A DNA stretch of 64,000 bases from Trissonchulus latispiculum (Eukaryota > Nematoda > Enoplea > Enoplida > Ironidae), in NCBI GenBank assembly GCA_030248195.1, contig JASAND010004231.1:20374-84373 (forward strand), given 5' to 3'. The translations under genes were made by a program, and so were the position numbers. Numbering within the stretch: position 1 is the first letter of the stretch; every line of letters starts with the position of its first letter. Positions 5,338 to 41,477 of this stretch are shown here, one piece after another. The notes beneath the pieces were generated by a model that did no database searches, was not told where the DNA came from, and saw only the letters and a list, made by a program, of their open reading frames with translations.

Positions 5338-5341
5338 GATT
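5338..5341. repeat. Target-site duplication GATT (left copy)
   Basis: GATT precedes the LTR start TGTAATG and matches GATT at 32173-32176 directly after the other LTR end. Confidence 0.8.
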
Positions 5342-6262
5342 TGTAATGAAGTAGGTAAGATTGGGATTCCAAATTCCGCAACAGTCTATCACGACTGACT
5401 CTGGGTATCAACCACTTCGAGTACACGGAAGGTCGACGCGTTTATCGGTGAGGATAAACTTAGGCACAGGATCTTCGGAAGGTGATTTGTCCAGAACCAA
5501 AGATTCCTTGCGGTCAACCTGGATGGGGTCTAGGAGTGAGTTCGTTTGAAGAGGATGGGGATCCAAGGGATATCAGTAGCAAGCGGGGTCGACACTTGCC
5601 GTTTCCGGATAGATGAATCAGGTCTGTATCAAAGAACACTGATTGAGAATGTTGATTGCCAAATCAAGATTCTAGAACGATGATTGTGATGTCTTTGTCG
5701 GAACCAAGGGTTCAATTTAAACACTTACTTGTGCAGGGGCTATGAATCCAAATCTTGATCTGAACCTTATGTCCTAGTCAGTAGATTCAGTATTAGGACA
5801 CAACAATTTAATAATGATAACTATAATGATATTAACAACGATAGTAGTGATAGTAAACAATAAACAGGAGCATTACAGTGCGTACAGGGGATAAGACAGG
5901 TTACAACTCACAAACTATATGCTGTATAAACAATTAGACAAACAACAGTGGTTTGCCATAGTTGCCAGTATTTGATTTACCCGAGTTACTAGTTGTTGAT
6001 AGGGACAAGGTTCTGATAACTAAACTCAATCCTACAATGTTCCTCTTTCTTTCCTTTCTTAATCAATTAACTAGATACTAAACCTAATTACTAAACTCTT
6101 TCGTGCAGTCCCTATGTGCTTGTGTTCGTGTTAATAGATTATAACTCTTTCTCCGTCCTCCTTACCAAGGACAATATAGTATCAGTTAAGAAAGCTACTA
6201 AACAGTTTAAATTAACTAAATTAAAGGGTTAGTAGCACAGTGGTTCCGGTCTGTGGGTGAGC

Positions 6263-6464
6263 CCGAAATGCTAGTAACAATAGCACTTTCGGATGCTATA
6301 CGGTCGCCAGAGGGTTAAACACAAGGGGGGTCCGGTTGGGTGTTTCCTGGTCCGTTTATGGGGTTAGTATACAATTTTGTTTAATCTCTTCTTTTGTCTT
6401 CTATATCAGATCACTACTAACAGACGGGCGGTTTAGGCCAGAGTTACGGGGATGACAACCCCGT
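6263..6464 (-). other. Two conserved-loop hairpins in the 3' LTR
   Basis: At 6269-6285 the plus strand reads TGCTA-GTAACAA-TAGCA, inside a longer CCGAAA...TTTCGG stem. At 6446-6464 it reads ACGGGG-ATGACAA-CCCCGT. The stems are unrelated in sequence but pair fully, and the loops are near identical. On the sense (minus) strand the loop is UUGNYAY. The same hairpins occur in the 5' LTR at 26539-26555 and 26715-26733. Confidence 0.7.
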
Positions 6465-6844
6465 ATTCCATAGCAAAAGACAAAATGATGAAACCCATTT
6501 TCAATGTGTAAAAAGGTAAGACTCAATTTCAGCTCAAAAGATTAGCATTATGAAAGTTCACAACTGGTTTCAGTCTCCACAGATGATTCGGTGCTGTCAA
6601 CGGTTGTCTCTGCCTTTAAGGTCAAAAAACCGTGCTCCAATCCAATCAAAGTACCTACAGTTAAATCCAAATATGACTTGATTCCCAAGAAATGCTATGC
6701 TTCCAACCGAAATGACTAATCCTTCTGCTATCCAATAATTCCGGACTGTACTGAGCTATCTCTAATCAATCAGAGGCAGATTCCGTTCTGTTCAGGCTGG
6801 AGATACAGTCTTCTGCACCTGAATCAATTGGGTTAAAACCCATT

Positions 6845-6893
6845 AATACAAGTTATAGGTGCGGGATTCGAACCCAGCAACCATTACTCACAT
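6845..6893 (-). promoter_or_regulatory. tRNA T-arm / B-box-like sequence in the LTR
   Basis: The minus strand at 6874-6864 reads GGTTCGAATCC, an exact match to the RNA polymerase III B-box consensus, flanked by a short pairing stem as in a tRNA T-arm. The other LTR has it at 27130-27140. No acceptor, D-arm or anticodon arm can be folded around it, so this is not a tRNA gene. It could be a tRNA-derived relic or a Pol III or primer-mimic site. Confidence 0.4.
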
Positions 6894-7272
6894 TTTGGCT
6901 TTCTGAACTTAAAATACACTTGCGAAAGTCGAAACTGTTATGAAAATTTGGGATTTAGGTGGATTATTACGAGCTCTGAATGATTTAAGCAAAATCAGCA
7001 GCACTTGAAGTTGACTTTAAGTAAAACACTAACTTTTTGGGCAATTTCTTGCATTCGTACGCAAGAAATTGCAATTTCAATGTGAAACTATGATTTCAAG
7101 TTGATTTCTCTTTGTACAGTCTGCTTCTGTACGATTAAAACCTATTATTCGAAATTGATACACTTTTGGGCCCTTTTACAGCAGACAGGTACCCATTCAC
7201 TCAGTTAACTCGAGAAACAATAAATTGATTAAAGTGATCAAATCTAGGACCTTTGTTTCCTGAGTCCTAGCA

Positions 7273-7530
7273 AGGAAGGTAACAACTTCCTGTCTTCAAC
7301 ACGTACTAACTAATTAGAAAGTGCCTAGTACGCGGATTTGATGAAAACACAATATTTGAATGCAGAACTTTTGATTTCACGGTTCTAAATAAGGAAGGTA
7401 ACAACTTCCTGTTCTTAACGAGCATTAACAAGTTAGAAGAAAGTTAACGCACAAATTTAATGAAACATCATAATTTAACGTAGAACCTCTGTTTTTACTA
7501 AGTTCTACCTAGGGAAGGTAACAACTCCCT
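7273..7530 (-). other. Three conserved-loop hairpins in the 3' LTR
   Basis: AGGAAG-GTAACAA-CTTCCT occurs at 7273-7291 and 7392-7410, and AGGGAAG-GTAACAA-CTCCCT (one bulge) at 7511-7530. The spacing is about 119 bp, with related flanking text, so this is a degenerate tandem repeat. 5' LTR copies are at 27539-27557, 27657-27675 and 27777-27796. Confidence 0.7.
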
Positions 7531-8057
7531 ATTTTGTAAAATGTTGAATATTGAAAACTAGTTGGATTCATAAACTGGTAATCTTGGCATTATCAGAAGA
7601 TGGTTCTAGTAAACTATCCATAATACTTACGTAACTAATTGTTAATTTACTTATTTCAGGTATATCATCAGTTATTGCTTAATATTAGTTAGAATCACCG
7701 GATTGTTGACACTTATTATTGCCATTTGCAGATAATTATCATGGATGAGTTTCACATCAATTACTAAACGAGTAAGGTTGATTTTTCAACCTTGCTAACC
7801 CTTACATAACGGAGTTTGGTTAATTTTGCCTTTGAACTTGAACACCGACATGAAAATGGTGTTAGACCGCGGTTGCGGTCATTACTAGGAATAAAACATA
7901 CATCAGATATGGCTAGCTTAACTAAAAATGGCAATAACGGTGTGTTCTGACCTTAGAAACAAAGACACAGAGAATATAACTACAAACTACGTTTATTACA
8001 GCTTGATTTGTATTAATTTGGCAAAGAGACCGACTATTTGGTAGATTCCTGTTCTTG

Positions 8058-8104
8058 CGATTCGTCCGCACTCTTGACAAAGAGTGGCTTACGCGGACGA
8101 ATCG
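8058..8104 (-). other. Two-level hairpin with TGACAA loop in the 3' LTR
   Basis: A 12-bp outer stem CGATTCGTCCGC pairs with GCGGACGAATCG and encloses CACTCT-TGACAA-AGAGTG. The loop belongs to the same TRNCAA class as the smaller hairpins. It is conserved at 28327-28373 in the other LTR. Confidence 0.7.
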
Positions 8105-10800
8105 AGGATATCCATATTCAGACTGATAAGGACCTAGTACGGAGTCCCCCATGATTCTAGGTCCTATAGCCCTAACCTCATTTGCATATTTACTAAACTG
8201 TGCCTAAATCTAGATTTCCTACGTAACCAAATATTCACCAACTTCCAGATATGCATACAAGACTTGCACCCTAAAACTACGTTACTGATTATTACTTATC
8301 CTGCGTACTATAGGAGTTCTGGTATAATTTTGGCACTTCATACAGATCATGCATACAGAGGATCATTAACCATTTAGACGGTCACTTACTCGAATACAAC
8401 TGACAATTACATTACGTGAAACATTCATACAAGGGTCCTAGGTAATCTAATATTGAACTACGTAACCCTATTTGCTAATTAGACACAATCATGCAACATT
8501 TATGCAACACCTAAACTAATAACCACTTATACCTCACTTATGCAACGTTTAGACTAGAATACGCTCATATTACTAGAAATGCAGTCATTCATGCAAATCA
8601 CACATACGTTTCATTCCTGCTTAATATCTGAGTCTTGATCACTCCAGCGATGCTCACAACCTTCATCGGACAGAAGGAGTTTCTGCGAGTCAAAGCGCAT
8701 GCAGTCATAGAAGCCAATACAATGCCATTCATACAATTCATGCATACACAAACATACAATTTCCTAGGTAAGTATTTATCTAGCTAATCCTAAAACAGAC
8801 ATGATCATAAACAATCTAAACGGGACTAACCCTAATTGATATTAAGTAATCTGTGCTTCTAGCTATTATTTTAAACGTACTAAATTAACTGAATTTATGT
8901 TATGAGTTTTAGGTATCTAAAACTCAGTTTGTAGCGCGGAATTTTTGGCAATTTTGAGAACTTTGCAATTTCTGGGAAAGCCGTGTGAGTAATGATTGCC
9001 AAGCAATCATTACTAAACAAAACTACTATTATCAAACAAAACTACCAACAATACTTAAATTAATTTGTGGGGAAGCCGGTCATTCCCCGTGAAACGCTTA
9101 ATTATTAATTATTCATAAAGTGCAAGAAGTTGTTTTAGAATTCTACTTTAAAACTTGTTCATGTGTTCTTTTGATAACCTGTTACCTTTTTTTAGTTACC
9201 GACCTACAACATACAGTGCAAATTACAAACAATGATTTTTAAGGCTTAACAAAGCCTGAGATTAAAACAATATGGCCGGCAACTCCTAGTTGCCGGCTGT
9301 GGGGTGAATATTTCTATTAACTAACTCAGTAAATTAGGGTCGTAGTAAAGGGACCCTCTAACTCAAACTTAGGGGCTGGGTCCCCGCTTAATAATCCCAT
9401 AATCTACTTTTAAACCCCAAATTTAGGTCAAAAGGACCTTAATGAAAAATTGATAAAAGTTGGCCGTGGCTTGACCAAAAGTGCAAATAAAAGTAACAGA
9501 ATGAATGAATGAAATAATCGGAGGTGGAGGTCAGCAAACCTCGATATACAGAGAATGTCGGCACGAAAAACAAAAAAACTAAAATTGGGACAATTCTCAA
9601 GACCTCCATCGAACAGGAGGGGTTTACATGAGCTGTCCCTTTATTGAAATAATAAAATAATAAAATAACAATAAAAAATAAAGAAGAAATAAAAGTGGCT
9701 CGAAAGCCCACACATGCTAGAAAACTAAAGATTGGCCTCAGGCCCAAAATATTGAAAAAATGGGGCTCGCTGGCCCAAGGGTACGCATAAAAATTGGCCC
9801 ATTGGCCTTAAAAAATGTATATAAAAAATGGCCCGAAGGCCCCAAAATAAGCACATATTAAAAAATGGCCCAAGGCCTGAAAATGTATAGAAAAGTGGCC
9901 AAAAGGGCCGTTGAACCCTAGGCTTTTTTTTTCTTCTCAATCCTCGGCCAGGTATAGAAGACCTATTCGGCCCTAGTTGGTAAGTGTTCGTTGAAATTCT
10001 CAATTCTTTTCTGGCCCAGAGGCCAGAAAAGTCCTACTATTTTCCTAACCGGGGAAATGCGCTTTAGCCCCCATGCAGTACCAACTGCACTGGAGAGCGC
10101 ATAAAGGGGAGGGGGGAAGCAACCGCTTTCGGTTGCTCTCAAACGAACACTGATTTGAAAATAAAATTTTGGACCGAGCTGACAGTTTTGCTGACAGCTC
10201 GGTGACAGGTCATTAGCGAGACCTGGAGCTCGCTTTTTCTTTGATTTTAAGGCAAAGCTTCTAGAAAGTTCTAGAACCTTCTAGAAGCTTGCCACCTTTT
10301 GTGTGTGGGGCGCAGCGGCGGGCTGAGCCAGCTGGCCATTAGTGGTCGAAATTAATGGGATTTTGAAATTATTGCCCCACAACTGACCCATTTTTGATAT
10401 ATTTCCAGTGCCGAAACTTGGCGAAACTTTGCGAAATTTTCTTTAACATATAAACGTAACCAAAGGGAAAACTTTACGAAATTTCGGCATTTTAGTGAAT
10501 TATTATGCNCGAAANATNATTTTCTANAAGTTAAAAATTATATCATGATAATCTACGTACTTATCTACGTATATCTAGCTAATAACATTTATATTATTAT
10601 ATTATTATTAAGGGGGTTAAGCCCCCTCTAAACCCAATGACTTGGGCTTATCCTACTATTTTCTTTGTTTCCTCTTTGTTGGCCTTGTCCTCGGCCAAAA
10701 GTTCAGGTGAGGACAACTGCTAGGCCTTAGAAGAAAGAGGCCTAGCAGTGAGAGAAGAGAGAGAAAAGAGGTGAGGGGAATAACACCTGACTCAGGTGTA

Positions 10801-11412
10801 GTCTGGGAGGTAGACAACCTCCCAGACAATAAAAAAGGAAAAAGGTTTGCCTTAACTTTAAGGCAAAGAAAACCAATTTTAGTACACTCCTTTTTGGAGT
10901 GTTAAGATTACGACACCAAAAGTAATCTTATAAAAACATTTTAGCTCATAACTTTCTTATTATTGGGAGTTAGAAAAGTCGGGTTTGGATTTTTAGAATC
11001 AGAATCAAATTCTCTTTCATATAAGCCCAAGTCATTTTTCGACCAAAAATACTAAAATTAACTGATTATTACCTAATAAACACTTAATTATTGCTAATTA
11101 TCTCTACCTAACTACGTACTTAGCTATTTCGTACCTAATGGTAAACCATCTTCCAATATTTGCTATTTTTGATGTCAATTTCCATTTTATAGGCAATTTT
11201 ACGACTAATTTTCAGTTTAATTATGCACATAAACTTCGTATTTTGGTTTTGTGTCTCCCTGTTAATTGTTATCCAAACACTAGTGGTTTGCTAAATTGCG
11301 GAGGAAGCCTTATTCGACTCGGATAATAGACGTTATTCGCTTATTCACCTAAGTAAAGTTCAAATGTTGACTTTTATCTTAGTGTGGGAGTAACAACTCC
11401 ACTTACTAAAGG
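10801..11412 (-). other. Two conserved-loop hairpins near the LTR end
   Basis: A perfect 10-bp stem GTCTGGGAGG-TAGACAA-CCTCCCAGAC lies at 10801-10827. GTGGGAG-TAACAA-CTCCAC with one bulged G lies at 11393-11412. Both are conserved in the 5' LTR at 31166-31192 and 31753-31772. Confidence 0.65.
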
Positions 11413-11787
11413 GATTAAGACCGGAATACCCCTTTTACATAGCTCCTGGATTAGTATTGTTAATAAACACACGTTAGTAGGACCAAATTAAGCCTAAGAT
11501 TATAATTAAAACTAAGATTCGCGTCCTAATTGGATATTAATCCTGACCCTTATTAATAAATTTCGTGATTTTCGCTAAATACTGGCAACTCTAGCTAGGC
11601 AAACATAAAATAATCTGTACAATCATTGCTTGGACATTAATTGCTAAATACATTACATATTGATGATCCTCGCTTTTCTTCACAGATCCATGGCATATGA
11701 GTTCTTCCTTGCGGGTTGATTATTTTTGAACATTTTTAGATCAATTTTCGATTATTTTTAGCACCTTATTTTACTAATTCCATTACA

Positions 11788-13657
11788 ACCTCCACAAATA
11801 AAATGGTTAGGCTTTTAACTAGGGGGGAAGACCAAAACGTTACGAAAATTGAAACCTTCGACCAAACAGAAACATTACTCAATTCATCTTGCATATACAT
11901 TCCAAATCTCATACATAATCAACAATTACTGATTTCTACTGCAAGAAGGACGGATAAAGATTATGATAGACTACTGCGTATATTGCGTTCCAAATTTTCT
12001 AATCTTATCTATCTTATGACTACGATCAATTACTAACAATTATTTCTTACTTCCTTACTTATTCTACTGCCTTATTCAAAACTCCTGATAATTAATATCT
12101 GTATACTTCCTTTCCAGGTGGGGTCGACCTTCTATGGGTCCGTTCCACAACCACCATGACTTCATACTCAGCTACTATAATATCTAATTTGCATATTTCT
12201 CTCTGAGGTGGGGTCGACCTTCTACGGGTCCGTTCCGCAACCACCATGACTTCATACTCAGCTACTATAATATCTAATTTGCATATTCCTTTCTGAGGTG
12301 GGGTCGACCTTTTTTTTATCTTTAAACACTACACAACTCCCTAAGACTCATTTTAATCGGGGTAACAACCCGAGTTCTCCTAATATCTGGGTAACAACCA
12401 GATAACCTATGATCGGGGTAACAACCCGATCATTTATTATCTTTACGTGATTTCCTTGTCCCTTTAAAGATTTTAAATCAAGTACCAGCTACTTCTTTAA
12501 TAATTTTCGTTTCACTTATGCATACTAACATCACTTTGCACATGATTGTCCGTTAACTGTCATAATTCCAATAATCATATTCATCGCACATTGTCCTATT
12601 ACTAACGCATTTTCAGACCTTCAAAATTCAGCAACATAGAAATCGAATACTCTTCACAACTCAAATTCGAGAACAAACCACTTAAAATATCTCTTCATTA
12701 ATCAACTCCTCATATACTTCTGAACTGTCTTCCTTTTCTCTACATTACACTTCAATTCTATTCCCAATTAGTAGCTGGTAACGTCACATATTACATCATA
12801 TAAACACACAACAAAATTAGGTAAACAGATTCTTCCTTCATCAACTCTATTAATCCTCATAAGTCCAAAACCTCTCAGAAAATACTTTCAGCTTTCGAAA
12901 ACGAATGTAACTAAACCAATTTTGATGAGCAAAGATCATTAGTTCAAATTTGTCGCAAGCAATTAATACATATACATGTTAAACATAAAGAACATTACAT
13001 TAGTATGACATAACTAGCTAACAGTATTAAAATATACATATTCACTAAACCTATACACAGTGCAGAACTTCTTAGCTAATAGCCGTTTAGTGAAATTACG
13101 TAAACAATAATAACAATACAACAATTACCAGATAATGATTAAACATGACATATAAAATAATAACATTACAACGATACTACTTATTAAATAATATTGAACT
13201 AATTATTTTTGGTGAGTTTTCTAATTAAGAGTCCACAAACACTATTTCTCAGTTCACACTTCTCTTTTGCCAGATCCTTTCCGTTCACCCATTATCAATT
13301 AATATAATATAACAATTATGACTGCCCATACATTTAACCAAATATACATATAACTACGCTGTACATCATTAATCCAATAAACATATTTTTGTAATGATTT
13401 TCTGATAATATCCGCAAAACGTATACAAGAAACTTTCCGTATGCAATATTTACAAAGTAGTCACAATACAGCCTGGATATAAATAGACAGATACAAGCAT
13501 AGAGTACAAGCATAGAACAATCCTTACGTAATATTTTTGGCTTTTGTGATTAAGTATTTTTTTGCATCTTTTCCAAATATGCTTCTTTTTAGACATTTTT
13601 CATCACTTTTTCTCACACTTTGTACATTATCAAGCAGTCATACTAGGGGAATTCCTT
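11788..13657 (-). other. 3' non-coding part of the element, upstream of the 3' LTR
   Basis: No credible ORF. It contains a 90-bp tandem repeat (units from 12116 and 12206, a third truncated at 12296) built on AGGTGGGGTCGACC. Three conserved-loop hairpins follow: CGGG-GTAACAA-CCCG (12358-12372), ATCTGG-GTAACAA-CCAGAT (12385-12403) and GATCGGG-GTAACAA-CCCGATC (12411-12431). The sense strand just before the 3' LTR ends in TGTGGAGGT, at best a short polypurine tract. Confidence 0.6.
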
Positions 13658-14941
13658 TTACTGACCGTACGGGTCATAGGTGAGGATTTCATTCAGGTAA
13701 TCCTCCATGTCTTCTTCCTCAAGAGGGGATTCGAGTTCACGCTCATCAGCGAATTCTCGGATAGAGCGAGCCTTCTCGTGGGCGATCAGCTTGAGTTCGC
13801 CGATTTGCCTCCAGTACTCGATCACAGGTATAATACCTGCGTCGAGGCAGCTGTCAAGGGCTCTCAACTCCCGCTGGATATAAGCGGGTACGTCGTCCCG
13901 CCATTCCTCCGGTAGGAGGGGAATCTTGATGTTCAAGGGAGGAAGGGGATCTAGATCCGCATCCAGTTCGTCGGAGTTGGCTCCCTCCTGGCTGAGGCCG
14001 AGGGCGGTCTCAAGCCGGAGCAGGAGAGGATCGTCGAGGTTGTCATCGCTATTTCCCGACGTGCGATCCCGAGCGAGGTCGTTCTCTTCACCTTCCTCAT
14101 TCCGCTCCTCCCCAGCAGAAAATGGTGAGATTTCCGACTGGGGGGAGGAAACATCAGCAGGGGCTTGCCGTTCGGCTGGAGGACCGTCTGGGTGGCGGAG
14201 GGTAGGATATGGGGGGAATTTGCCAAAAGGCGGCTCCGGAAACAGGGGGCGCTCTACTTTGAACCCAGGAGTGTTAATGAGGAGGAGAATATCTATCCTC
14301 AGGTTTTCCAATTCCCGTAGGAGGAGGGCAATGTCCGCTTCAGTCATCCGCTCGATGTTAATCTTCAGAAGAAAGTTTCTGAAAGCGGACTGAATTTCAT
14401 CATGCGGGGTCATACCGGGGAAGGGGCGGATGTGGTTCTCGAATTGAATGAGGCTGTCACGCAACCTCAACCCAACAGCGTCCATGTGAGCCTTATAACC
14501 CGGGTGCTGCATACCGACGGGGTAGCGCTTCATTTCTTCCACCAGCTTGAGGAGATGGGCGGCATTGTAGGCTGAGGGTGTGTGGAAGGGATGGTCATTG
14601 AGATCCTTCCTCTCGGTATATTTCCCAGCTGAATGCGGAATTTTGACAGAGCATTCAGTTGAGGCCTTCGGCTCTCCAGGTTTGGCAAAGGGCGTGTTGC
14701 ATTGTGGACACACGTCCACAGAGGTCGACTGGGGGGCCACTGTAATGGGCCGGAATCCCACATAGGGGATGCGGGGGCTAGGCACTGGGGCTCTATGCCT
14801 AATTGGCTGTCCTGCCAAGATTGGGATTGGGACCCGGAGTCCCGGAAGAACCATAGGGTTCCTGAAGATGCGGTTCTGCGATAGCTCCATTTGTGGGGTA
14901 TATGATCTGGGGAGGGGGTCTGGTGAAGTGGCACTGGTCAT
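13658..14941 (-). CDS. Retroelement ORF5, acidic protein of unknown function
   Basis: 427 codons from ATG at 14941. The N-terminal third is Pro-rich, with one CxxC pair (Cys78, Cys81). The centre (about residues 125-230) is predicted helical, with PGYKAHMDAVGLRLRDSL and repeated Leu/Ile spacing. After a Pro/Ser linker, the C-terminal 150 residues are strongly acidic (EEGEEND, LESPLEEEDMEDYL). I recognise no family. It is the last ORF in sense order, separated from ORF4 by a 484-bp gap with a hairpin cluster. Codon use and the uninterrupted length argue that it is real. Confidence 0.7.
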   Translation of the reverse strand: MTSATSPDPLPRSYTPQMELSQNRIFRNPMVLPGLRVPIPILAGQPIRHRAPVPSPRIPYVGFRPITVAPQSTSVDVCPQCNTPFAKPGEPKASTECSVKIPHSAGKYTERKDLNDHPFHTPSAYNAAHLLKLVEEMKRYPVGMQHPGYKAHMDAVGLRLRDSLIQFENHIRPFPGMTPHDEIQSAFRNFLLKINIERMTEADIALLLRELENLRIDILLLINTPGFKVERPLFPEPPFGKFPPYPTLRHPDGPPAERQAPADVSSPQSEISPFSAGEERNEEGEENDLARDRTSGNSDDNLDDPLLLRLETALGLSQEGANSDELDADLDPLPPLNIKIPLLPEEWRDDVPAYIQRELRALDSCLDAGIIPVIEYWRQIGELKLIAHEKARSIREFADERELESPLEEEDMEDYLNEILTYDPYGQ

Positions 14942-15425
14942 CTCCAGATTAGTTGTTCCTGAAATTATACTTTTAGCTCAATAAGAAGGTTATGACACAG
15001 TACCCATGGTTCCGGAGTGACGTGTATGCGTTCAGAGTAACAATCTGAGTGCATTATTTGATCTGGATAGCAATCTGTAGAGTTTAGTAATAAGGGTAGT
15101 ATGACTGTTGATATAGGCAATGAGGTAAACAACTCATTCGAAGTGTTTGTAGAATCTGTTAAAGTATTCTACGGGGGGTGACAACCCCAAGGTGTATAAT
15201 GCTTCAGTATTCCATGGGAGTAACAATCCCAATTTTCAGTAATTTTTCATCTTTCTGGAACTGTATAAAAACTGATTAAAAGAACAATTATACCAGAAGT
15301 AATATGTTACAAGGATATACATATATAAGTCATGGCTAATCATACGACAGTTAACATACATGCAATAGCATACACATATATATATAAAAACATTTAAAAC
15401 AGTAACAGCCTTAGTCCTGGCTTCT
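14942..15425 (-). other. Gap between ORF4 and ORF5 with hairpin cluster
   Basis: Four conserved-loop hairpins, shown as plus strand: TCAGA-GTAACAA-TCTGA (15032-15048), TGAG-GTAAACAA-CTCA (15121-15136), GGGG-GTGACAA-CCCC (15174-15188) and TGGGA-GTAACAA-TCCCA (15215-15231). In sense orientation they lie about 90-290 nt upstream of the ORF5 start codon. Nothing else is recognised. Confidence 0.65.
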
Positions 15426-16994
15426 TTAGTGGCAGCGACAGCGTTTGTGTGGAGGTGGATGACCTCGATACTTCGCACAAGGGGGCCCGAGGGATAGAGT
15501 CATCAGATTCGGGACGGGGGAAGAGTCCTTTTTCTTGTCGGGACTCGGCAAGGGACGCTTTGGACGGGCAGGGGAGGCAGAACAGGAGCAAGGGGGAGAG
15601 GGATTTCGCCATTTTCGATCCTCTCGATGTCGGGGGGAATGACTCCTCTTCTTCTGATGGCTGTTTTTGTGCGGGGAATTTCGGTGGGAGGAACTAGAGG
15701 AAGGCAGGGAAGGATGACGCGGCTTGAATATTGGACTGTCCTTCAGAGGCCGCTTTTCTCTATAGGCAACATAATTTTGCCTTTTAACATCAGGAACCAT
15801 GAGGGCAGCACGGACCCGTTGATAGTTGGGATGGTCCAGGACATAGGTGTGTCCGTTCGACACGGCAATCGGATCCTGTGGGCGGAAGTGCGTGCCATCA
15901 GACCTGAAGGTGTAGCACCCCCAGGTCAAGGCAGCCCAACCAGGATTCCGCTTCATAACTTCGGTAGGGTCACCAGAGTCCGGGACATACACTATGGTGG
16001 GGAAAGCCCTGACCATAGGGAAGGGCTCCTGATAGCCCTGGTTGGTTTGACTGAGAACTTCTGAGAGCTTGTTGGCCTCTGCCTGATAGACGGCGCCAAC
16101 ATCCAGTTTCTCCACCGTTTCTCGAACAACGGTGATTTCTGGGAGGACCAGGATCTTGGTGAGGATGGGAGAACGGATGGCGTTAACCACCCGGAGACAT
16201 CGGGCCGGGTTGGCCTTATGGATAGGGATGAGGAGGGGGTCGCTGCAACCGCTGATCTCCTTCAAGACATCAATGATTTGATTGTTCTGCAGCGCGCAGC
16301 CTCCGACGATGACAACGCGTGGGCTGGCAGGATAGAGTCCTTCGGGATCCTTTAGATATGCCCGGTAAAATTCCAACAGCTGTCCAAGGATGTTGGCAGC
16401 CTGCTTCTGACGGGCGATATCGATGACTCGCTGATCAGCTTCTTCTTTTGAAGAACTGAACTCCTCACATCTAAGGTCAAACAGCTCTTCACCGATGCCC
16501 CAGAAAATGTCACTGGTGGCTTCCATGAGTCGGCGATTTCCAGTGGCCATAAGCTGTTCTCGGAAGTAGGGCATTGAGAACTTGGACAGGAGGATGCCTG
16601 CCATCACTAGGACCTTGAAGGGTAAATAGGAATGGGGGTAGGGGAGCAAGCGACTGAGATCAATTTGATCCTTGCCCTTCTGTTTGGCATCTTGGGGCCG
16701 CTCTTGTTTCAAGATGTCTTTCGACACCTTGAAAGCACCCGTTAGATCTGCCAGGAGCACCTGATAGGCGTGCTCTACTGTAGATCGCTCCTTCTTGAGA
16801 TGTCGTATCATGATGGGCCGGTCATTGACATCTCTTCCGGGATGTTTCGCGAAGTTTGAGAGGGCCCGATGGGAATCGGCGTCGCTTCTAATCCAAAGGA
16901 AGGTTCCGGGGTTTTCCGGCATATAGGGGAGTTGGAAGATGTGCAACTTCCGTAGTTCATCCAATGCACTATGATGCAACTGGAGCTGATTCAT
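15426..16994 (-). CDS. Retroelement ORF4, NADAR-domain protein
   Basis: 522 codons. Residues about 15-170 match the NADAR (YbiA/DUF1768) pattern: ALSNFA (44-49), STVEHAYQ (71-78) with the Glu-His pair, KF...LMATG...LMEAT (138-160) and a closing FWGIG (164-168). NADAR enzymes cleave N-glycosidic bonds in ADP-ribose- or riboflavin-pathway-type substrates, including ADP-ribosylated nucleotides in some systems. The substrate here is unknown. Residues about 225-400 form a second region with a Rossmann-like RVVIVGGC start that I cannot name. The last 100 residues are Arg/Ser/Lys-rich, like an RNA-binding or nuclear-targeting tail. The ORF follows the Env ORF after an 885-bp gap containing hairpins. 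Confidence 0.75.
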   Translation of the reverse strand: MNQLQLHHSALDELRKLHIFQLPYMPENPGTFLWIRSDADSHRALSNFAKHPGRDVNDRPIMIRHLKKERSTVEHAYQVLLADLTGAFKVSKDILKQERPQDAKQKGKDQIDLSRLLPYPHSYLPFKVLVMAGILLSKFSMPYFREQLMATGNRRLMEATSDIFWGIGEELFDLRCEEFSSSKEEADQRVIDIARQKQAANILGQLLEFYRAYLKDPEGLYPASPRVVIVGGCALQNNQIIDVLKEISGCSDPLLIPIHKANPARCLRVVNAIRSPILTKILVLPEITVVRETVEKLDVGAVYQAEANKLSEVLSQTNQGYQEPFPMVRAFPTIVYVPDSGDPTEVMKRNPGWAALTWGCYTFRSDGTHFRPQDPIAVSNGHTYVLDHPNYQRVRAALMVPDVKRQNYVAYREKRPLKDSPIFKPRHPSLPSSSSSHRNSPHKNSHQKKRSHSPRHREDRKWRNPSPPCSCSASPARPKRPLPSPDKKKDSSPVPNLMTLSLGPPCAKYRGHPPPHKRCRCH

Positions 16995-17879
16995 TCTAAA
17001 ATAATGAATTTCTGATTACTTTTCAAATTTCTTTAAAATAAGTTTTCGTACACTCGCACGAAGGGTAAAATTAGGGGTACCAACCCTACTGAAACCGTTG
17101 GAGGGATATCAACCCTGCTAGATTCGCTCAATTAAGGATAACAACCTCTCTGTCTGTGTATTGCTGCATGAGGTTAGCTGTATCCGAATTTCAGACCGGT
17201 ATCAACCGATGTAGAGATGTTATATTAATGATGGCAGAGATCCTCTAAAGAAATCATAAATTCTTGTTTCGGTGGATCACAAAAGATTACATGTATAATA
17301 CATAGATACATTAATTCTCTTACACAACTTTACACACGATTATGGGCATAACAAAAACATGCAACATATAATGGGTGTGAAACGGAGGGAGCTTATCTCC
17401 CCTGGCAACTCTGGCTTACATTCCTTAATTACATACAATTATACAAGTATTTCATACACATACACATAATTAACCATGTCTTTATGATATTCTATATTTA
17501 AAACTTCATTATATCCTCGAAATTCCATTTTACACAAAATTGCAAACACTTTAACATTTCCTCCATATTTTTTATATTATTTTCTTGGAATATTGCTTTT
17601 TATATAATTTTCTTTGTTATAGCATAGGGAATGGCATTGAGGAATTATGCATAAGTAATTTAGTTATTTAAGGATATTGTTTTAGTAATAAATTAATTTT
17701 AATGATTTTAAAATTATAAAAGGAAATATTGAGCGTTAAAGATGAAACTAAATATAGTGTAAGCCTTTTTTGGTAATGCCTCTTAGGTTAACTGATTCGT
17801 ATTCCTCAACCGCCATTCCCGGGGAGAGAGCTTACATTGAGTTCTCCCCGTAATTTATATACATTTACAGTCATAGACA
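16995..17879 (-). other. Gap between ORF3 and ORF4 with hairpin cluster
   Basis: Conserved-loop hairpins on the plus strand: TAGGG-GTACCAA-CCCTA (17072-17088), AGGG-ATATCAA-CCCT (17102-17116), AGG-ATAACAA-CCT (17135-17147) and CGG-TATCAA-CCG (17197-17208). In sense orientation they lie about 80-210 nt upstream of the ORF4 start. The remainder (17210-17879) is AT-rich with no gene seen. Confidence 0.6.
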
Positions 17880-22790: not shown

Positions 22791-24499
22791 AGATCGAGTC
22801 TTCCGGCATGGGGAGATTCTTCAGGGGCTTCCAATATGTCACTGTCAAGGCAACAGTAGAATTCCTCATCAGAAACTGATCTCTCCAATCTCTTCAATAT
22901 CCGTCTGCTGACTTCATAGATGGCATCCTGATCAATAGGCTTAAACTTACTTTTCCCTGGGTATTTGATGAGATCGGTGATTTGATATTCCAACTGGGGA
23001 GGGGATGAGGTTCCACCTTGGACCATGAAGATACTGGGGTCTAGGACTCGCAGGAGTTCTTCTTCAGTGAGCATTTCCCCAAATCGGTCCAGGACTCTTC
23101 GAGCAAATTTCACAACTGGGCCCATATCGATAGGGGTAAGTTCTGACTGACAGTCTTGCTTTGCTTGATGGATAACAGGGCTTTGAATCTGTAGTTTCCG
23201 ATCCTGCTCCGTCTGATTCTGGTCGTTTTGCTTCTTTTGTTCCATCAGTTCCTTTTCAGAAACCAAGGGGGCGTGCAACAGATCCATTGCCATACTGCCG
23301 TGCGCGAGAACCTTTCGCGCACTTTGCATCACTGCAGGCATATCAATCTGAGAGCTAGGTTTCGGACTTGTGGGAGCTGGGTTGGGATAAAGTGAAATGA
23401 TTCCATTATTTTGGTGACTGAGAACAGGCCCAATCTGAGGAGCTGGAGATAGACCGAGCTGTACTCTGAATTCTCGCACTGCTTCTCCTAACCCAGTGGC
23501 TAAGGCGTCAGAGGGAGGAACTGATTGGAATCTGGGGACTGGATAAGTTTGAGTGAAATCATGACATCGGGGACTTCTTCGCAATCCTCGTCCGCGTCCC
23601 AATGACCGTCCTCGTGGTTGATTCCTTCGCTGATCTTTTTCATAAGGTCCAGGGAATCTTTTCGTCGGTAAGCGGATCATCTGGGTTGTTTCAATGATTG
23701 ACTGCTCAGGAGAGTTTTCTTTGTCTGGGTTCCCTTCAGTGGAAGAGGAGGTGGGGGATGAATCCTGTGAAAGTCTCTGTTTCACATGGGAAGGATAACC
23801 GTACTCTATGGTCTGAGGTTCTCCCAACCTGTGAGTACGGGGGTAGGTGACAGACATTGGCTTCTGATACATAGGTAGGGAGTACAGTTCACGATTCAAT
23901 CGCTCAGTTTCCGGATCCGCGGAATCCTTCTCTGTATTCAGTGTATACGTGGATTTCTCCTTGGGCTGTTCGATCTTAACATAGGGAGGGATGGAAAAAT
24001 ACTGGCCTCCCAGATCCTTGATTTCTTGTTCCAATTGTAGAATCTGAGTGGGTAGACTGGATTTTTCAGGCGGGAAATAAGCAGTTTTCCTTTCCGGTTC
24101 AGCTCCAATGACTCGGATCATGGAGGGAGCATTCCTCTGTTGGTCCACATCGGCAAATCTGGATCCATAGGGGGCGTGAACAGTTTCAGCTGCGTTTCGT
24201 CCATCATTCCTGCTCCACTGAGGTCTGGGCTGAAGATATTGTTGTTGTTGTCCTGAGGGTCCGTTTCGGGGTGGATATCGGTCATTATAATTCCGATTCA
24301 TTCCATTTCCATTTTGAGGATATCTTAGACTGTCCATTGTTGGGCCGGAAATTGTTGGAATTTCCATTGTTGTTATTGTTGTAGTTATTGCGCGGGGGAG
24401 CTGGGTAGTCAGTTCTGGGTCGATAGGCTCCACCTCCGGGTGATCTGCATTCACGCTTTGAGTGTCCGGCTCTTCCACAGTTACAGCATCTGAAATCAT
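22745..24499 (-). CDS. Retroelement ORF2, Pro/Gln-rich linker with threefold repeat
   Basis: 584 codons in a different frame from Gag, overlapping it by at least 215 nt. The N-terminal half is low-complexity (Pro, Gln, Asn, Arg), with an Arg/Gly-rich patch QPRGRSLGRGRGLRRS. The C-terminal half has three degenerate copies of a helical motif at about residues 382-415, 453-490 and 519-553: IDMPAVMQSARKVL, IDMGPVVKFARRVL and IDQDAIYEVSRRIL, the latter two followed by a TEEELLRVLD-like segment. Family unknown. Position and basic patches suggest a Gag-linked structural or nucleic-acid-binding protein. The first ATG of the frame may not be its true start if it is read by a +1 shift from Gag. Confidence 0.65.
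   Translation of the reverse strand: MISDAVTVEEPDTQSVNADHPEVEPIDPELTTQLPRAITTTITTMEIPTISGPTMDSLRYPQNGNGMNRNYNDRYPPRNGPSGQQQQYLQPRPQWSRNDGRNAAETVHAPYGSRFADVDQQRNAPSMIRVIGAEPERKTAYFPPEKSSLPTQILQLEQEIKDLGGQYFSIPPYVKIEQPKEKSTYTLNTEKDSADPETERLNRELYSLPMYQKPMSVTYPRTHRLGEPQTIEYGYPSHVKQRLSQDSSPTSSSTEGNPDKENSPEQSIIETTQMIRLPTKRFPGPYEKDQRRNQPRGRSLGRGRGLRRSPRCHDFTQTYPVPRFQSVPPSDALATGLGEAVREFRVQLGLSPAPQIGPVLSHQNNGIISLYPNPAPTSPKPSSQIDMPAVMQSARKVLAHGSMAMDLLHAPLVSEKELMEQKKQNDQNQTEQDRKLQIQSPVIHQAKQDCQSELTPIDMGPVVKFARRVLDRFGEMLTEEELLRVLDPSIFMVQGGTSSPPQLEYQITDLIKYPGKSKFKPIDQDAIYEVSRRILKRLERSVSDEEFYCCLDSDILEAPEESPHAGRLDLWVENLLKKWILLSP
22766..22772 (-). promoter_or_regulatory. Candidate -1 ribosomal frameshift heptamer A AAA AAG
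   Basis: The sense strand reads A AAA AAG with the first A in third codon position of ORF2, the correct register for a -1 slip. The slip enters the ORF3 frame 8 codons before the ORF2 stop. A sense-strand structure downstream was not evaluated. Seven codons of ORF3 precede the site if its own ATG is used. Confidence 0.55.
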
Positions 24500-25427
24500 T
24501 GGGGAAAGGGATCTTATCGTTTCCTCTTCTGGGAGGAGGGGCAGATTTTGACGGTTCAGGAGAGGAAATCTTAATTTCTTTTATTTCATTAGCGAGCACG
24601 GCTGTGCTCTGGACCAGGGAGCTGATGGTATTTAGAAGGGCGGGACCAGTGAGATTTGCGCTTGAGACGGTCGCTTCCGGATCCACTTCCAAAAATGCAG
24701 GCGTTCCTTCTCCAGGATAGACACCTTCTGCTTCTCGAGCCTTTTTAAAGGCTTGGGAATAATCTGCGGTGTCCATCGGAACATGCGGCTTGAACTCATT
24801 ACGTAATCCGATGAGAAAGGTTTTCAGCTTGATATCCTCTAGCATATCCGGATCTCCTCTGTCTTCCCACGCAATTCGGGCGTATTTCTGCAGTCGGAGG
24901 GAGAAATCCGCAACAGACTCATGTGGCATCTGTCTGATACTGAACAGTTTGGCAGTGGCGTGGATGTCTGTCATAGGTGGGATCATGACTTCTCTGAGGG
25001 CTCGAACGGAGGCTTCCCAGTCGTTCTGTTGCATGGCGCCTCTGGGCATGCACTTGAAAATCTCCGCAGCTCTGCCTCTGAGAGTTGATGAGATGTTCAT
25101 GACTTTCTGATAATCGTCCAGATTGAGCCGCTGACTGAATCTTTCGTAATTGACAAGGTGATCATCAAAGTTTTCATGATCTTTTCCGGAATAAGTAGGC
25201 ATATCTCGGTAGGAGGCGGCTATGGCCTGATTCTGGATGCTATCACGGAGTTGGCCTAGCAAATCTTCAATATTCCCATTCGGCATCATTGGCACTTGAG
25301 GGAATACCAATTGGGGCATCTGAGGATTAAAGGCGGGGGGAGCTCCTGGAGGACCGGGGGGTCCGCGTTGTGGACCCATGTTCGGGGGTCCATTAACGTC
25401 GTCGTCGGCAGGATTAAATTGGTCCAT
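24285..25427 (-). CDS. gag: Retroelement Gag with zinc knuckle
   Basis: 380 codons from ATG at 25427, 180 nt inside the 5' LTR. A Pro-rich N-terminus (residues 1-50) precedes a retrotransposon-Gag capsid region (about 85-245) with the family pattern F...L..YARIAW and FLIGLRNEF. A CCHC zinc knuckle C-x2-C-x4-H-x4-C lies at about residues 311-325, then an Asn-rich tail. Gag forms the particle and binds genomic RNA in the cytoplasm. First ORF in sense order; ORF2 overlaps its 3' end. Confidence 0.85.
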   Translation of the reverse strand: MDQFNPADDDVNGPPNMGPQRGPPGPPGAPPAFNPQMPQLVFPQVPMMPNGNIEDLLGQLRDSIQNQAIAASYRDMPTYSGKDHENFDDHLVNYERFSQRLNLDDYQKVMNISSTLRGRAAEIFKCMPRGAMQQNDWEASVRALREVMIPPMTDIHATAKLFSIRQMPHESVADFSLRLQKYARIAWEDRGDPDMLEDIKLKTFLIGLRNEFKPHVPMDTADYSQAFKKAREAEGVYPGEGTPAFLEVDPEATVSSANLTGPALLNTISSLVQSTAVLANEIKEIKISSPEPSKSAPPPRRGNDKIPFPNDFRCCNCGRAGHSKRECRSPGGGAYRPRTDYPAPPRNNYNNNNNGNSNNFRPNNGQSKISSKWKWNESEL

Positions 25428-25607
25428 TTCTTCTTCTTGGATAGGGCGATAGGGTTTCAGCTGGTGTCTAGATAGGGTTAGGACTGATCCTCTTTTGATC
25501 TTAATGTTGAATCGTTGGGTCGTGAAATCTCCTCACTGGTGGATTTTCCAACAGGATTGTCTTCGTAGGATGTTCCTCACTGGGGGCTCCAAAAACTGAG
25601 TTTACCG
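25428..25607 (-). other. 5' leader between 5' LTR and gag
   Basis: 180 nt. The expected primer-binding site is not obvious: the first TGG on the sense strand lies 16 nt inside (25591-25589), followed by AGCCCCCAGTGAGG, and I cannot match it to a tRNA 3' end. The decamer CCAGTGAGGA occurs twice. Confidence 0.45.
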
Positions 25608-28600
25608 TGTAATGAAGTGGGTAGGATTGGGGTTCCAAATTCCGTCAACAGTCTATCACGACTGACTCTGGGTATCAACCACTTCAGATACACGGAAGGT
25701 CTGACGCGTTTATCGGTGAGGATAAACTTAGGCACAGGATCTTCGGAAGGTGATTTGTCCAAAACCAAAGATTCCTTGCGGTCAACCTGGATGGGGTCTT
25801 CAGGCGTGAGTTCGTTTGAAAAGGATGGGGATCCAAGGGATATCAGTAGCAAGCGGGGTCGACACTTGCCGTTTCTGGATGGATGAATCAGGTCTGTATC
25901 AAAGAACACTGATCTGAGAATCTTAGATTGCCAAATCAAGATTCTAGAATGATGATGATGATGTCTTTGTCGGGTCCAAGGGTTCAATTTAGTCACTTAC
26001 TTGTGCTGGGGGGCTATGAATCCAAATCTTGATCTGAACCTTATGTCCTAGTAAATAGATTCAGTATTAGGACACAACAATTTAATAATGATAAGATATG
26101 ATATTAACAATGATAATGATAACAACAGACTACAAAGTAATTATTACAGTGCGTACAAGGAATAAAACAAGCTACAAGTTATAAACTATATGCTGTATGA
26201 ACAATCAGACAAACAACAGTAGTTTGCCAGAGTTGCCAGTATTTGATTTACCCGAGTTACTAATTGTTGATAGGGACAAGGTTCTGGTAACTAAACTCAA
26301 TTCTGCTATATTCCTCTTTCTTTCCTTTCTTAATCAATTAACTAGATACTAAACCTATTACTAAACTCTATTGTGCGATCCCTATATGCTTGTGTTCGTG
26401 CTGTTACGTTATGACTCTTTGTCCGTCCTCCTTACCAAGGACAATATAATATCAATAAAGAAAGCTACTAAACAATTCAAATTAACTAGATTAAAGGGTT
26501 AGTAGTACAGCAGTTCCGGTCTGTGGGTGAGCCCGAAATGCTAGTAACAATAGCACTTTCGGATGCTATACGGTCACCAAGAGTCAAACACAAGGGGGGT
26601 CCGGTTGGGAGTTTCCTGGTCCGTTTATGGGATTAGTATACGGTTTTATTTAATCTTTTCTTTTGTCTTCTATATCAAATCACTACTAACAAACGGGCGG
26701 CTTAGGCCAGAGTTACGGGGATGACAACCCCGTTTTCCATAGCAAAAGACAAAATGATGAAACCCATTTTCAATGTGTAAAAAGGTAAGACTCAATTTCA
26801 GTTCAAAAGATTAAGATCATGAAAGTTCACAACTGGTTTCAGTTTCCACAGATGATTCGGTGCTGTCAACGGTTGTCTCTGCCTTAAGGTCAAAACCGTG
26901 CTCCAATCCAATCAAAGTACCTACAGTTAAATCCAAATATGACTTGATTCCCAAGAAATGCGATGATTCCAACCGAAATGACTAATCCTTCTGCTAACCA
27001 ATAATTCAGGACTGTACTGAGCTATCTCTAATCAATCAGAGGCAGATTCCGTTCTGTTCAGGCTGGAGATACAGTCTTCCGCACCTGAATCAAATGGGTT
27101 AAAACCCATTAGAACAAGTTATAGGTGCGGGATTCGAACCCAGCAACCATTACTCACGTTTTGGCTTTCTTAACTTGAAGTGAACTTGCACAAATCGAAA
27201 CTGTTGTGAAAATTTGAGACTTAAGCGGATTAACGCAAGTTCTGAACTGTTTGAGTAAAATTACACTACTTAAAATTGATTTTAAGCAAAACGCTAATTT
27301 TTAGGCAATTTCTTGCATTCTTGTGCAAGAAATTGCACTTTCAATGTGGAACTGTGATTTCAACTTGATTTCCTCTTTGTACGGTCTGCTTCCGTACAAT
27401 TAAAACCTATTATTCGAAATTGATACACTTTTGGGTCCTTTTAACAGCAGATAGGTACCCATTCACTAGACTAACTCGAGAAACATTGAATTGATTAAAG
27501 TGATCAAATCTAGGACCTTTGTTTTCCAAGTCCTAGCAAGGAAGGTAACAACTTCCTATCTTCAACACGTATTAACTTAATTAGAAAACTTGCACAAGCT
27601 TGAGGAAAACACAATATTTGAACTTGTAGAACTTTTGATTTCACGGATTCTAAATAAGGAAGGTAACAACTTCCTGTTCTTAACGAACATTAACAAGTTA
27701 GAAGAAAGTTAACGCACAAATTTCAATGAAACGTCATAATTTAACGTAGAACTTCTGTTTTTACTAGGTTCTACCTAGGGAAGGTAACAACTCCCTATTT
27801 TGTAAAATGTTGAATATTGAAAACTAGATAAATTCATAAAACTGGTGATTTTGGCCTTTATTAGAAGATGGTTCTAGTGCCCTATCCATAATACTTACGT
27901 AACTCATTGTTAATTTGCTTATTTCAAGTATATTATCAATCACTACCTTAATATTAGCTAAAATTACCAGATTGTTGACAGCTATTATTGCCATTTGCAG
28001 ATAATCATCATGGGTGAGTTTCACATTAATTACTAAACGAGCAAGGTTGATCTTTCAACCTTGCTAACCTTTATATAATGGGATTTTCGCTAGTTTTGTT
28101 TACTGAACGTGAACACCGACATGAAATGGTGTTAAACCGCGGTTGCGGTCATTATTATAAATGGAACCTGGATCAGAAATGACTAGTTCTATTATAAATG
28201 TCAATAACAGTGTGTTAAGACATCGGAAACAAGGATACAACAAATATAATTACAAACTACGTTTATTACAACTTGATTTGTATTAATTTGGCAGCGAGAC
28301 TGACCATCTGGTGGATTCCTTTCTTGCGATTCGTCCGCACTCTTGACAAAGAGTGGCTTACGCGGACGAATCGAGGATATCCAGATTCAAGCTGATGAGG
28401 ACCCAATACGGAGTCCTCGTGACTCTAGGTCCTATAGCCTTACCCTCATTTGCATATTTACTAAACTGTGCCTAAACCTAGATTTCCTACGTAACCAAAT
28501 ATTCACCAACTTCCAGATATGCATACAAGACTTGCAACCTAAAACTACATTATTTATTACTATTTTCCTGCGTACTATAGGAGTTCTAGTATAATATTGG

Positions 28601-31600: not shown

Positions 31601-32172
31601 TTCGTATGTTTCAGGTTTATGACTTCCTGCTAACTGGTATCCAAACACTAGTGATTTGGTTATCTTTGCGGGGAAGGCTTATTCACTCGGCTATTATGGA
31701 CGTTATTCACTAATTCACCTAAGTATAGTTCAATTGTTGACTTTTATCTTCGTGTGGGAGTAACAACTCCACTTACTGAAGGGATGATAACCGAAGGGAT
31801 TAAGACCGGAATACCCCTTTTTTCACATCTCCTGGATTAGTATTGTTAGTAACACACGTTAGTAGGACTTAATTAGGCTTAAAATCGTATTTAAAACTAA
31901 GATTCGCGTCCTAATTGGGTATTAACCTTGAACCCTATTAATAAATTTCCTGATTTCTACTGAATACTGGCAACTCGAGCTAAACAAACATATGATAATC
32001 TATACAATTATTACTTGGACATTACTCGATAATTACATTCCCTGTTGATGATCTTCGCTCTTCTTCACAGATCCATGGCATGAGAATTTCTTCCTTGCAG
32101 TTTGATTATTTTGAAACCTTTTTAGACCGATTTCGGTTACGTTTAACACCTTATTTTATTAATTCCATTACA
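25608..32172 (-). repeat. 5' LTR of the giant element (6565 bp)
   Basis: Direct counterpart of 5342-11787 with the same order of hairpins. Differences include a G-rich stretch at about 30866-30945 that is absent from the left LTR and many single-base changes. No protein-coding ORF is supported. The promoter start could not be placed. Confidence 0.93.
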
Positions 32173-32176
32173 GATT
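32173..32176. repeat. Target-site duplication GATT (right copy)
   Basis: Immediately follows the LTR end CATTACA and pairs with 5338-5341. Confidence 0.8.

Positions 32177-32251: not shown

Positions 32252-41477
<9,226 letters not shown>

Follow-up and report, generated by a model that had tools for sequence, protein, structure and literature searches.

A family of hairpins with a common loop and differing stems outside the coding regions of a long terminal repeat element of the nematode Trissonchulus latispiculum

The stretch of 64,000 nucleotides from Trissonchulus latispiculum analysed here (contig JASAND010004231.1, positions 20,374 to 84,373; hereafter the window) carries a 26.8-kb element on the minus strand with long terminal repeats (LTRs) at 5342-11787 and 25608-32172, the non-coding parts of which contain a family of hairpins with a shared loop—UUGNYAY in the sense of the element—and stems of variable sequence. 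Such a family, with an invariant loop and a single orientation, had been proposed in a preliminary description of the window and is confirmed by a strict pattern scan, a base-rate test and a covariance model. The hairpins, their orientation, their conservation, their non-coding placement and their presence in relatives are directly established. Concerning their role, we see about an even chance that they form arrays of putative protein-recognition sites marking the unspliced genomic RNA for export or packaging.

Occurrence and orientation of the hairpins

The strict scan, which required the 7-nt loop RTRNCAA and at least four Watson-Crick pairs, found 16 sites in the element, every loop being on the plus strand (i.e. 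UUGNYAY in the element sense) and none on the minus strand. In the 37 kb of flanks it found no site on the left and one, AT-rich, on the right. The number of at least eighteen sites given previously is reached only with relaxed forms (6-, 7- and 8-nt loops), which raise the total to ~22 outside the right LTR. Four hairpins precede the ORF (open reading frame) with a NADAR domain, four precede the 427-aa ORF, three follow the last ORF and ~10 are situated in each LTR (Table 1); the perfect stems have 4-9 bp at the strict-scan sites, the longest others reaching 10-11 bp. The loops listed in the preliminary description likewise need some correction, that at 15120-15137 being 8 nt, that at 17197-17208 and several in the LTRs 6 nt, and that at 10806-10822 reading TAGACAA.

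The pairing around the loop far exceeds the base rate. Of the 16 occurrences of the plus-strand word GTAACAA in the element, 11 are enclosed in a perfect stem of at least 5 bp, ~0.04 being expected, since only 0.23% of all 26824 7-mers of the element have at least five flanking pairs; none of the 11 lies in an ORF, and none is stemmed on the other strand or in the host flanks. With at least four pairs, 16 of the 56 RTRNCAA words of the element are stemmed versus 0.37 expected, and for RYRNCAR words stems are seen in none of 30 inside ORFs versus 16 of 77 outside them. When the perfect hairpins of the element were counted regardless of any motif, GTAACAA was the commonest loop (11), the commonest loop of shuffled sequences occurring only 2-3 times (among the five listed of 20 shuffles) and that of the flanks, where tandem arrays are present, being GGT (10).

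The covariance model, built from 11 sites and run unfiltered over the whole window, places its best 23 matches (E up to 1.1) exclusively on the minus strand, within the element but never in its ORFs; these comprise the 11 model sites, five tandem or right-LTR copies of them and seven new matches (7513, 27779, 11385, 31755, 17133, 10806 and 31171). Elsewhere in the window, the best plus-strand match has E=1.2 and the best one in the host flanks E=5. Across the genome (734 Mb, 21732 contigs), the pattern GGGGTTGNYAYCCCC was matched 462 times versus 85 for its reversed control and GGGGTAACAACCC 191 times versus 16, with a weak excess for CTGGTNGNYACCAG (106 versus 54) and no enrichment for GGGGTVGNYAYCCCC (743 versus 2568). 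The sole match of the window to Rfam at the gathering threshold was a tRNA, i.e. no described RNA family was found for the hairpins, and no such hairpin family was found among the papers listed by literature searches.

Conservation, tip geometry and other lineages

The stretch 17000-17300 has copies in 25 other places of the genome. Twenty stretches of 4.3-10 kb each were fetched, and four alignments, A1-A4, were prepared with 17, 17, 25 and 18 sequences, the partly homologous L044 and L031 being left out of A2 and A3, respectively. The mean pairwise difference in A1-A4 is 4.5-5.8% in stems and 0-10.5% in loops versus 18.4-31.0% outside, so that the orthologous stems and loops exhibit ~3- to 6-fold less variation than their surroundings; three of the four A3 sites have an invariant loop G. 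The model has 114 matches with E up to 0.05 in the 20 fetched stretches, of which 108 have the sense orientation; the other six come from L046 alone, a stretch that includes an inverted copy. The loops of 7 nt starting with UUG in 5-bp stems number, in these stretches and parts of the window, 173 in sense (53 distinct) and 20 in antisense (19 distinct).

Among the eleven paralogous sites of the window (ten distinct rows), changes on both sides are present at all five stem positions, and the covariation score of 0.987, versus 0.272 in shuffled rows, is reached by none of 500 shuffles; this count is partly circular, the sites having been picked for pairing, which does not apply to the base-rate test on GTAACAA and RTRNCAA. 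Individual sites vary between copies in several ways: one pair of the hairpin at 12409-12433 is C-G in 6, U-G in 7 and U-A in 4 of 17 copies, the loop at 10074-10089 has 6 or 7 nt and its closing G-C becomes A-U in L050, and at 11385 an extra base shifts between the loop and the stem. The LTR hairpin at 8060-8102 is strongly conserved over 14 rows and is identical in the left and right LTR of the window.

As far as the tip is concerned, the commonest loops are UUGUUAC/U, and RNAalifold, unprompted, closes UGAU by a U-A pair at the 17197 site. Loops of the type Y-N-G-N-Y-R-N account for 31 of 140 distinct perfect 7-nt-loop hairpins in sense versus 7 of 140 in antisense, with positions 1 and 6 of the 31 sense loops occupied by U-A (23), C-G (3), U-G (2) or C-A (3). 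Conserved loops of 6 nt—UUGAUA at 17197-17208, UUGUUA at 9242-9257, UUGGUA at 10074-10089 and UUGUCA at 8060-8102—and of 8 nt (UUGUUUAC at 15120-15137) exist as well. The tip would thus seem to be an N-G-N-Y tetraloop closed by U-A, sometimes C-G, and frequently accompanied by a single-base 3' bulge. The open pattern Y-N-G-N-Y-R is matched in the non-coding parts of the element, both LTRs included, 26 times in sense (U at position 2 in 26 of 26) versus 7 in antisense, the corresponding numbers being 3 versus 4 in the ORFs and 2 versus 5 in the 37 kb of flanks. Mimicry of a tRNA anticodon arm, taken to require an invariant 7-nt loop, was rejected, the 6- and 8-nt loops also being conserved.

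Hairpins of the same build are found in relatives. Eight stretches of 851 bases following the long frames of Gag relatives (Gag 78-95% identical) represent five lineages, i.e. C3815/C12107, C14497/C11457, C6651, C17124 and C16813/C6111, and their alignment to the window, where there is any, is confined to sequence preceding its hairpin cluster. The first lineage has CCUGG[UCGAUA]CCAGG and UUUCGG[UCGGUAC]CUGAAA, the second CUGG[UCGAUA]CCAG and UUGG[UCGUUA]CCAA, C17124 has AGAG[UGGAUAU]CUCU, and C16813 GAGU[CAGUUGA]ACUC together with two more of that type, so that the first tetraloop base, U in the lineage of the window, is C, G or A in relatives. Among the 100 of 106 places listed for it, the hairpin CUGG[UCGAUA]CCAG was present in 14 of the 20 contigs with 77-79% identical Gag, in each case following Gag on the strand that encodes it. 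By eye, the LTR hairpin at 26715-26733 has an apparent counterpart in C6765, GGGGA[UUGUUA]UCCCC, and in C17124, GGGG[UGGGUAC]CCCC. A strict cross-lineage scan, defined by Y-N-G-N-Y-R with pair 1-6 being U-A, C-G or U-G and a stem of at least four Watson-Crick pairs, and covering nine of twelve stretches (the near-duplicates L056, L058 and L062 left out), gave 10 sense matches and 1 antisense match versus a mean of 0.27 and at most 3 in 500 shuffles; four of the five unalignable lineages pass it.

Several observations weigh against the reading of the hairpins as recognition sites on the RNA of the element (see below). Inside orthologous sites the covariation does not exceed that of shuffles (the score is reached by 79 and 136 of 500), because those stems hardly vary; an absence of stem covariation between element copies, which the preliminary description had regarded as evidence against the family, is therefore nearly the case there, the stems being almost invariant. 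The G-U wobbles are mixed, with 31 sense-only cells versus 9 of the opposite kind but 10 versus 8 when counted per pair and type, so that the strand assignment rests mainly on the uniform orientation, and RNAalifold recovers all three hairpins in A2 but only two of four in A3. Across lineages, C6651 fails the scan, having only two AT-rich hairpins with the loops UUGGUA and UAGGUA, and at the same LTR place, judged by eye, non-fitting hairpins stand in C3815 (CGGGAG[GCGUUU]CUCCCG) and C6651 (GGGAGC[ACAG]GCUCCC). The 10 sense matches include a UUG loop (C6765) and, in C16813, a hairpin that extends into the NADAR start; the Y-N-G-N-Y-R pattern is post hoc, taken from the same loci, and hence a description rather than an independent test, and the best match of the covariance model R1 to the eight other-lineage stretches has E=0.13. 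The pairing kept between paralogous sites of different sequence, the low variation of orthologous ones and the recurrence of this build in four of the five lineages that cannot be aligned make selection on the hairpin structure, as maintained in the preliminary description, well supported.

Candidate functions and readers

The hairpins may act as cis-acting RNA recognition sites of the element, present in many copies outside its ORFs, with stems that would only need to pair. The four-hairpin clusters end ~75 nt (NADAR ORF) and ~72 nt (427-aa ORF) ahead of candidate 3' splice sites. At the other-lineage loci, UUUYAG directly precedes the NADAR start in six of eight cases and UUUAGAAG in two, only the pyrimidine-rich lead being independent in this comparison, as AG before ATGAA was what was sought. 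If these acceptors are used, the spliced mRNAs would lose the clusters and the full-length unspliced RNA would keep more hairpins; a protein binding the array cooperatively could then mark the genomic RNA for nuclear export and/or packaging. The repetition, the free stems, the loss of clusters in the event of splicing and the lineage-wise change of one loop base all fit protein-recognition sites with this marking role. The position of the clusters before the candidate acceptors would also suit a control of these two ORFs by the hairpins, at the level of splicing or of translation, for example through holding back the 3' splice sites, but the same hairpins are found throughout the LTR and after the last ORF, and we regard such control as quite unlikely.

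Two kinds of known systems resemble the proposed marking of genomic RNA. Small RNA viruses, such as satellite tobacco necrosis virus and parechovirus, have dispersed packaging signals, in which numerous hairpins along one RNA, in coding sequence as well, have the same loop on stems of varying sequence; the number of hairpins, the shared loop and the free stems recur here, whereas the carrier is an LTR element, no strict sites are in its ORFs, and the arrays are placed before ORFs and in LTRs. Retroviral psi or nucleocapsid-binding hairpins, with their loop-exposed G, and export elements of the Rev/RRE (Rev response element) type mark unspliced RNA, which would be the point of likeness, although unlike them the present element has ~20 dispersed copies.

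A function in recognition by Gag or in packaging, among those put forward in the preliminary description, would make the hairpins classical packaging signals, the exposed loop G being bound by the zinc knuckle of Gag. The single CCHC knuckle matches the nucleocapsid structure 1nc8 (E=0.0036), Gag is common to relatives with and without reverse transcriptase (RT), and the invariance of the loop G in A3 would agree with such binding. Relatives with 95% identical Gag, however, have UGG or UAG loops, the hairpins are scattered through the two LTRs and the 3' region, and no model match (E up to 10) lies in the 5' leader between the LTR end and gag (25428-25607), where such a signal is expected; packaging as such stays within the favoured reading, but Gag as the specific reader is unlikely.

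In the six contigs with a window-type cluster among the Gag matches listed, Gag is 85-93% identical, and it is 95% identical in C6651; the NADAR protein is 64-97% identical over the aligned stretches in 25 copies with a window-type cluster versus 48% over 50 aa in C6651. In these few lineages, the loop type is therefore not simply following Gag. The reader would more likely come from the fast-changing 3' module, i.e. the NADAR protein or the 427-aa ORF, than from Gag alone, and the protein of the NADAR ORF is a possible candidate. For the NADAR domains of Ectocarpus Gypsy elements a role in RNA processing has been advanced as a hypothesis (PMC12477816); they are located at the N terminus of Pol, in contrast to the separate downstream ORF here, and the excerpts of that account mention no hairpins. 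It is conceivable, if doubtful, that the hairpins constitute a lineage-specific RNA address code, in which ~20 hairpins per element share the NGNY tip, the first base is switched as a set, and an element factor of the 3' module, not Gag, would read it, so that elements with nearly the same Gag would keep their genomic RNAs apart. As far as we know, the choice of RNA by LTR elements with almost identical Gag is largely open, and ~20 natural hairpins per element together with relatives in the same genome differing at one loop base offer a system for finding the reader and testing its specificity. The family also provides a clear example of selection on RNA structure within non-coding sequence of a mobile element.

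RNA processing, likewise suggested previously, leads to the nearest known tip, the A/UGNN tetraloop recognised by Rnt1, the yeast RNase III, whose cuts fall at distances of 14 and 16 nt from the loop (PMC13183374, in excerpt). Both have G as the second tetraloop base (here on condition that positions 1 and 6 pair) and free stem sequence, the tetraloops UGUU, UGAU and UGGU of the element fit A/UGNN, and UGAU is also that of yeast BDF2 (PMC13183374). Rnt1 sites, however, contain a long duplex, whereas the present stems of 4 to ~11 bp are too short for such cuts, the first tetraloop base is C or G in other lineages, and a 3' bulge and clusters of many sites are additional differences; cleavage by an enzyme of the RNase III type is thus decidedly improbable, and this part of the suggestion is not favoured.

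The commonest loops also contain UUGUUA and so approach the sites of RNA-binding proteins of the host, for example one of the Brat-type NHL class (UUGUUA/G), the RNAcompete consensus for Brat being UUGUUAA and its motif UUGUUG (PMC9070667, PMC5908797). To the extent covered by the excerpts of these reports, Brat sites are linear, while many loops here, i.e. UUGAUAU, UUGGUAC, UCGNUA and UGGGUA, are off those motifs; for LIN41, several sites act together in targets, but the loop has to be of exactly 3 nt versus 6-8 nt here, or 4 nt with the U-A pair formed. Sites recognised by a repressor of the host would, moreover, presumably not be retained, and a host reader is improbable. Finally, the LTR has many other palindromes, which would be in keeping with palindromes acting at the DNA level (as a protein site or cruciform) or with inheritance without function; this is hardly credible in view of the conservation above that of the surroundings, and DNA palindromes were rejected on the single orientation and the variable arms around a fixed asymmetric centre.

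Architecture of the element and its surroundings

The LTRs are direct repeats of ~6.5 kb each with TG...CA ends, flanked outside by the target-site duplication GATT (5338-5341 and 32173-32176). Pfam identifies Retrotrans_gag (4.7e-08) in the Gag ORF and gag-asp_proteas (1.3e-09) in the element; with these LTRs, the duplication, gag and protease, the retrovirus-like element has hallmarks of an LTR retrotransposon. It is unlike Troyka, which, in the excerpts describing it, has CG...CG ends and 3-bp duplications (PMC12440569). The longest ORFs, i.e. Gag and those of 584 aa, 1636 aa, 522 aa (NADAR) and 427 aa, are all on the minus strand. The six ORFs of the window copy run against Pfam gave no match to RT. 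In C5939, a relative with 95% identical Gag, RT is present in the same open frame, and the window copy thus belongs to a family with RT-bearing members; in C5232, RT is within a frame of 3137 aa, and the hairpin cluster follows 4.2 kb further downstream in the same orientation. Many of the 108 scored matches to Gag (2424 candidates) stand at the beginning of single open frames of ~2500 or ~3800 aa.

Table 1 Features of the element in the window (hairpins in element sense, loops in square brackets)
Feature	Position	Strand	Basis and copies
Left LTR (3' LTR in element sense)	5342..11787	-	Self-BLAST and alignment; plus-strand ends TGTAATG...CATTACA
Weak hairpin, 3-bp stem, loop UUGAUAC	5402..5414	-	Covariance model E=10; right-LTR copy 25669-25681
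UGCUA[UUGUUAC]UAGCA	6269..6285	-	Strict scan and model; right-LTR copy 26539-26555
UACGGGG[UUGUCAU]CCCCGUA	6445..6465	-	Strict scan and model; right-LTR copy 26715-26733, 6 bp
AGGAAG[UUGUUAC]CUUCCU, first of three ~118 bases apart	7273..7291	-	Strict scan and model; right-LTR copy 27539-27557
AGGAAG[UUGUUAC]CUUCCU, second of three	7392..7410	-	Strict scan and model; right-LTR copy 27657-27675
One-bulge hairpin, loop UUGUUAC, third of three	7513..7529	-	Model; right-LTR copy 27779-27795
Hexaloop UUGUCA on a 5-bp upper stem, above a one-sided bulge of 7 nt and a 10-bp stem	8060..8102	-	14 rows; right-LTR copy from 28329
AGGCU[UUGUUA]AGCCU, 6-nt loop	9242..9257	-	Copies compared; relaxed pattern scan
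UGCAG[UUGGUA]CUGCA	10074..10089	-	Model E=1.7; right-LTR copy 30354-30369
Long GC stem, loop UUGUCUA (plus strand TAGACAA)	10806..10822	-	Model; right-LTR copy 31171-31187
Loop UUGUUA, mobile bulge	11385..11401	-	Model; right-LTR copy 31755-31771
UCGGG[UUGUUAC]CCCGA	12357..12373	-	Strict scan and alignment
UAUCUGG[UUGUUAC]CCAGAUA	12384..12404	-	Strict scan and alignment
AUGAUCGGG[UUGUUAC]CCCGAUCAU	12409..12433	-	Alignment
427-aa ORF, no family found	13658..14941	-	Pfam
Candidate 3' splice site UUUCAG, before 427-aa ORF	14959..14960	-	Sequence
UCAGA[UUGUUAC]UCUGA	15032..15048	-	Alignment; top pair A-U in 5 of 18, G-U in 13 of 18 copies
AUGAG[UUGUUUAC]CUCAU, 8-nt loop	15120..15137	-	Alignment and RNAalifold
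GGGG[UUGUCAC]CCCC	15174..15188	-	Strict scan and alignment
UGGGA[UUGUUAC]UCCCA	15215..15231	-	Strict scan and alignment
522-aa ORF, NADAR domain and basic Ser/Arg-rich tail	15426..16994	-	Pfam E=5e-13; translation
Candidate acceptor UUUUAG, one base upstream of NADAR start	16996..16997	-	Sequence
UAGGG[UUGGUAC]CCCUA	17072..17088	-	All 5 pairs kept in 25 of 25 aligned sequences
AGGG[UUGAUAU]CCCU	17102..17116	-	Strict scan and alignment
GAGG[UUGUUAU]CCUU, 3 bp and G-U	17134..17148	-	Alignment and model
CGG[UUGAUA]CCG, 6-nt loop	17197..17208	-	Alignment and RNAalifold
Gag ORF, capsid-type domain and CCHC knuckle	24285..25427	-	Pfam, structure match
Right LTR (5' LTR in element sense)	25608..32172	-	Self-BLAST and alignment; ends TGTAATG...CATTACA

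In the window copy, gag, ORF2 and ORF3 (17880-25427) are in separate overlapping frames, unlike the one-frame copies. The 1636-aa ORF (17880-22790) has a part resembling class-I fusion proteins (Fusion_gly, below the Pfam cut-off) followed in the same frame by the aspartic protease domain, an unusual order. No homologue of the NADAR ORF or Gag was found in a large protein set at E<=0.001, and no relative among solved structures of the NADAR ORF (E<=0.01) or the 427-aa ORF (E<=1). In L033 and L034, the NADAR protein is 97% identical to that of the window copy, the adjoining inter-ORF DNA being only 71-75% identical; to judge from these identities, modules may have been exchanged between copies. 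A direct repeat of 106 bases, 96% identical, at 12116-12311 adjoins the hairpin array at 12357-12433.

The left and right LTR differ in 10.4% of aligned bases; editing or hypermutation as the source was rejected, the differences consisting of 467 transitions and 199 transversions or N without a dominant class. Eleven hairpin sites (182 columns) are free of any difference between the two LTRs, which none of 20000 random placements equals. If the LTRs were identical at insertion, selection at the time of transposition would be no explanation for this, and a recombinant element, later selection or conversion would be needed.

The host surroundings contain a carboxylesterase fragment at 37184-37537, inverted repeats at 37731-39586 (~500 bases, 98% identical) and 47159-48743 (~450 bases, 99.6% identical), a tRNA-Thr gene at 46742-46815 and, at 48828-52007, two adjoining tandem arrays with offsets of ~125-140 bases and a strong GC skew at 49-50 kb.

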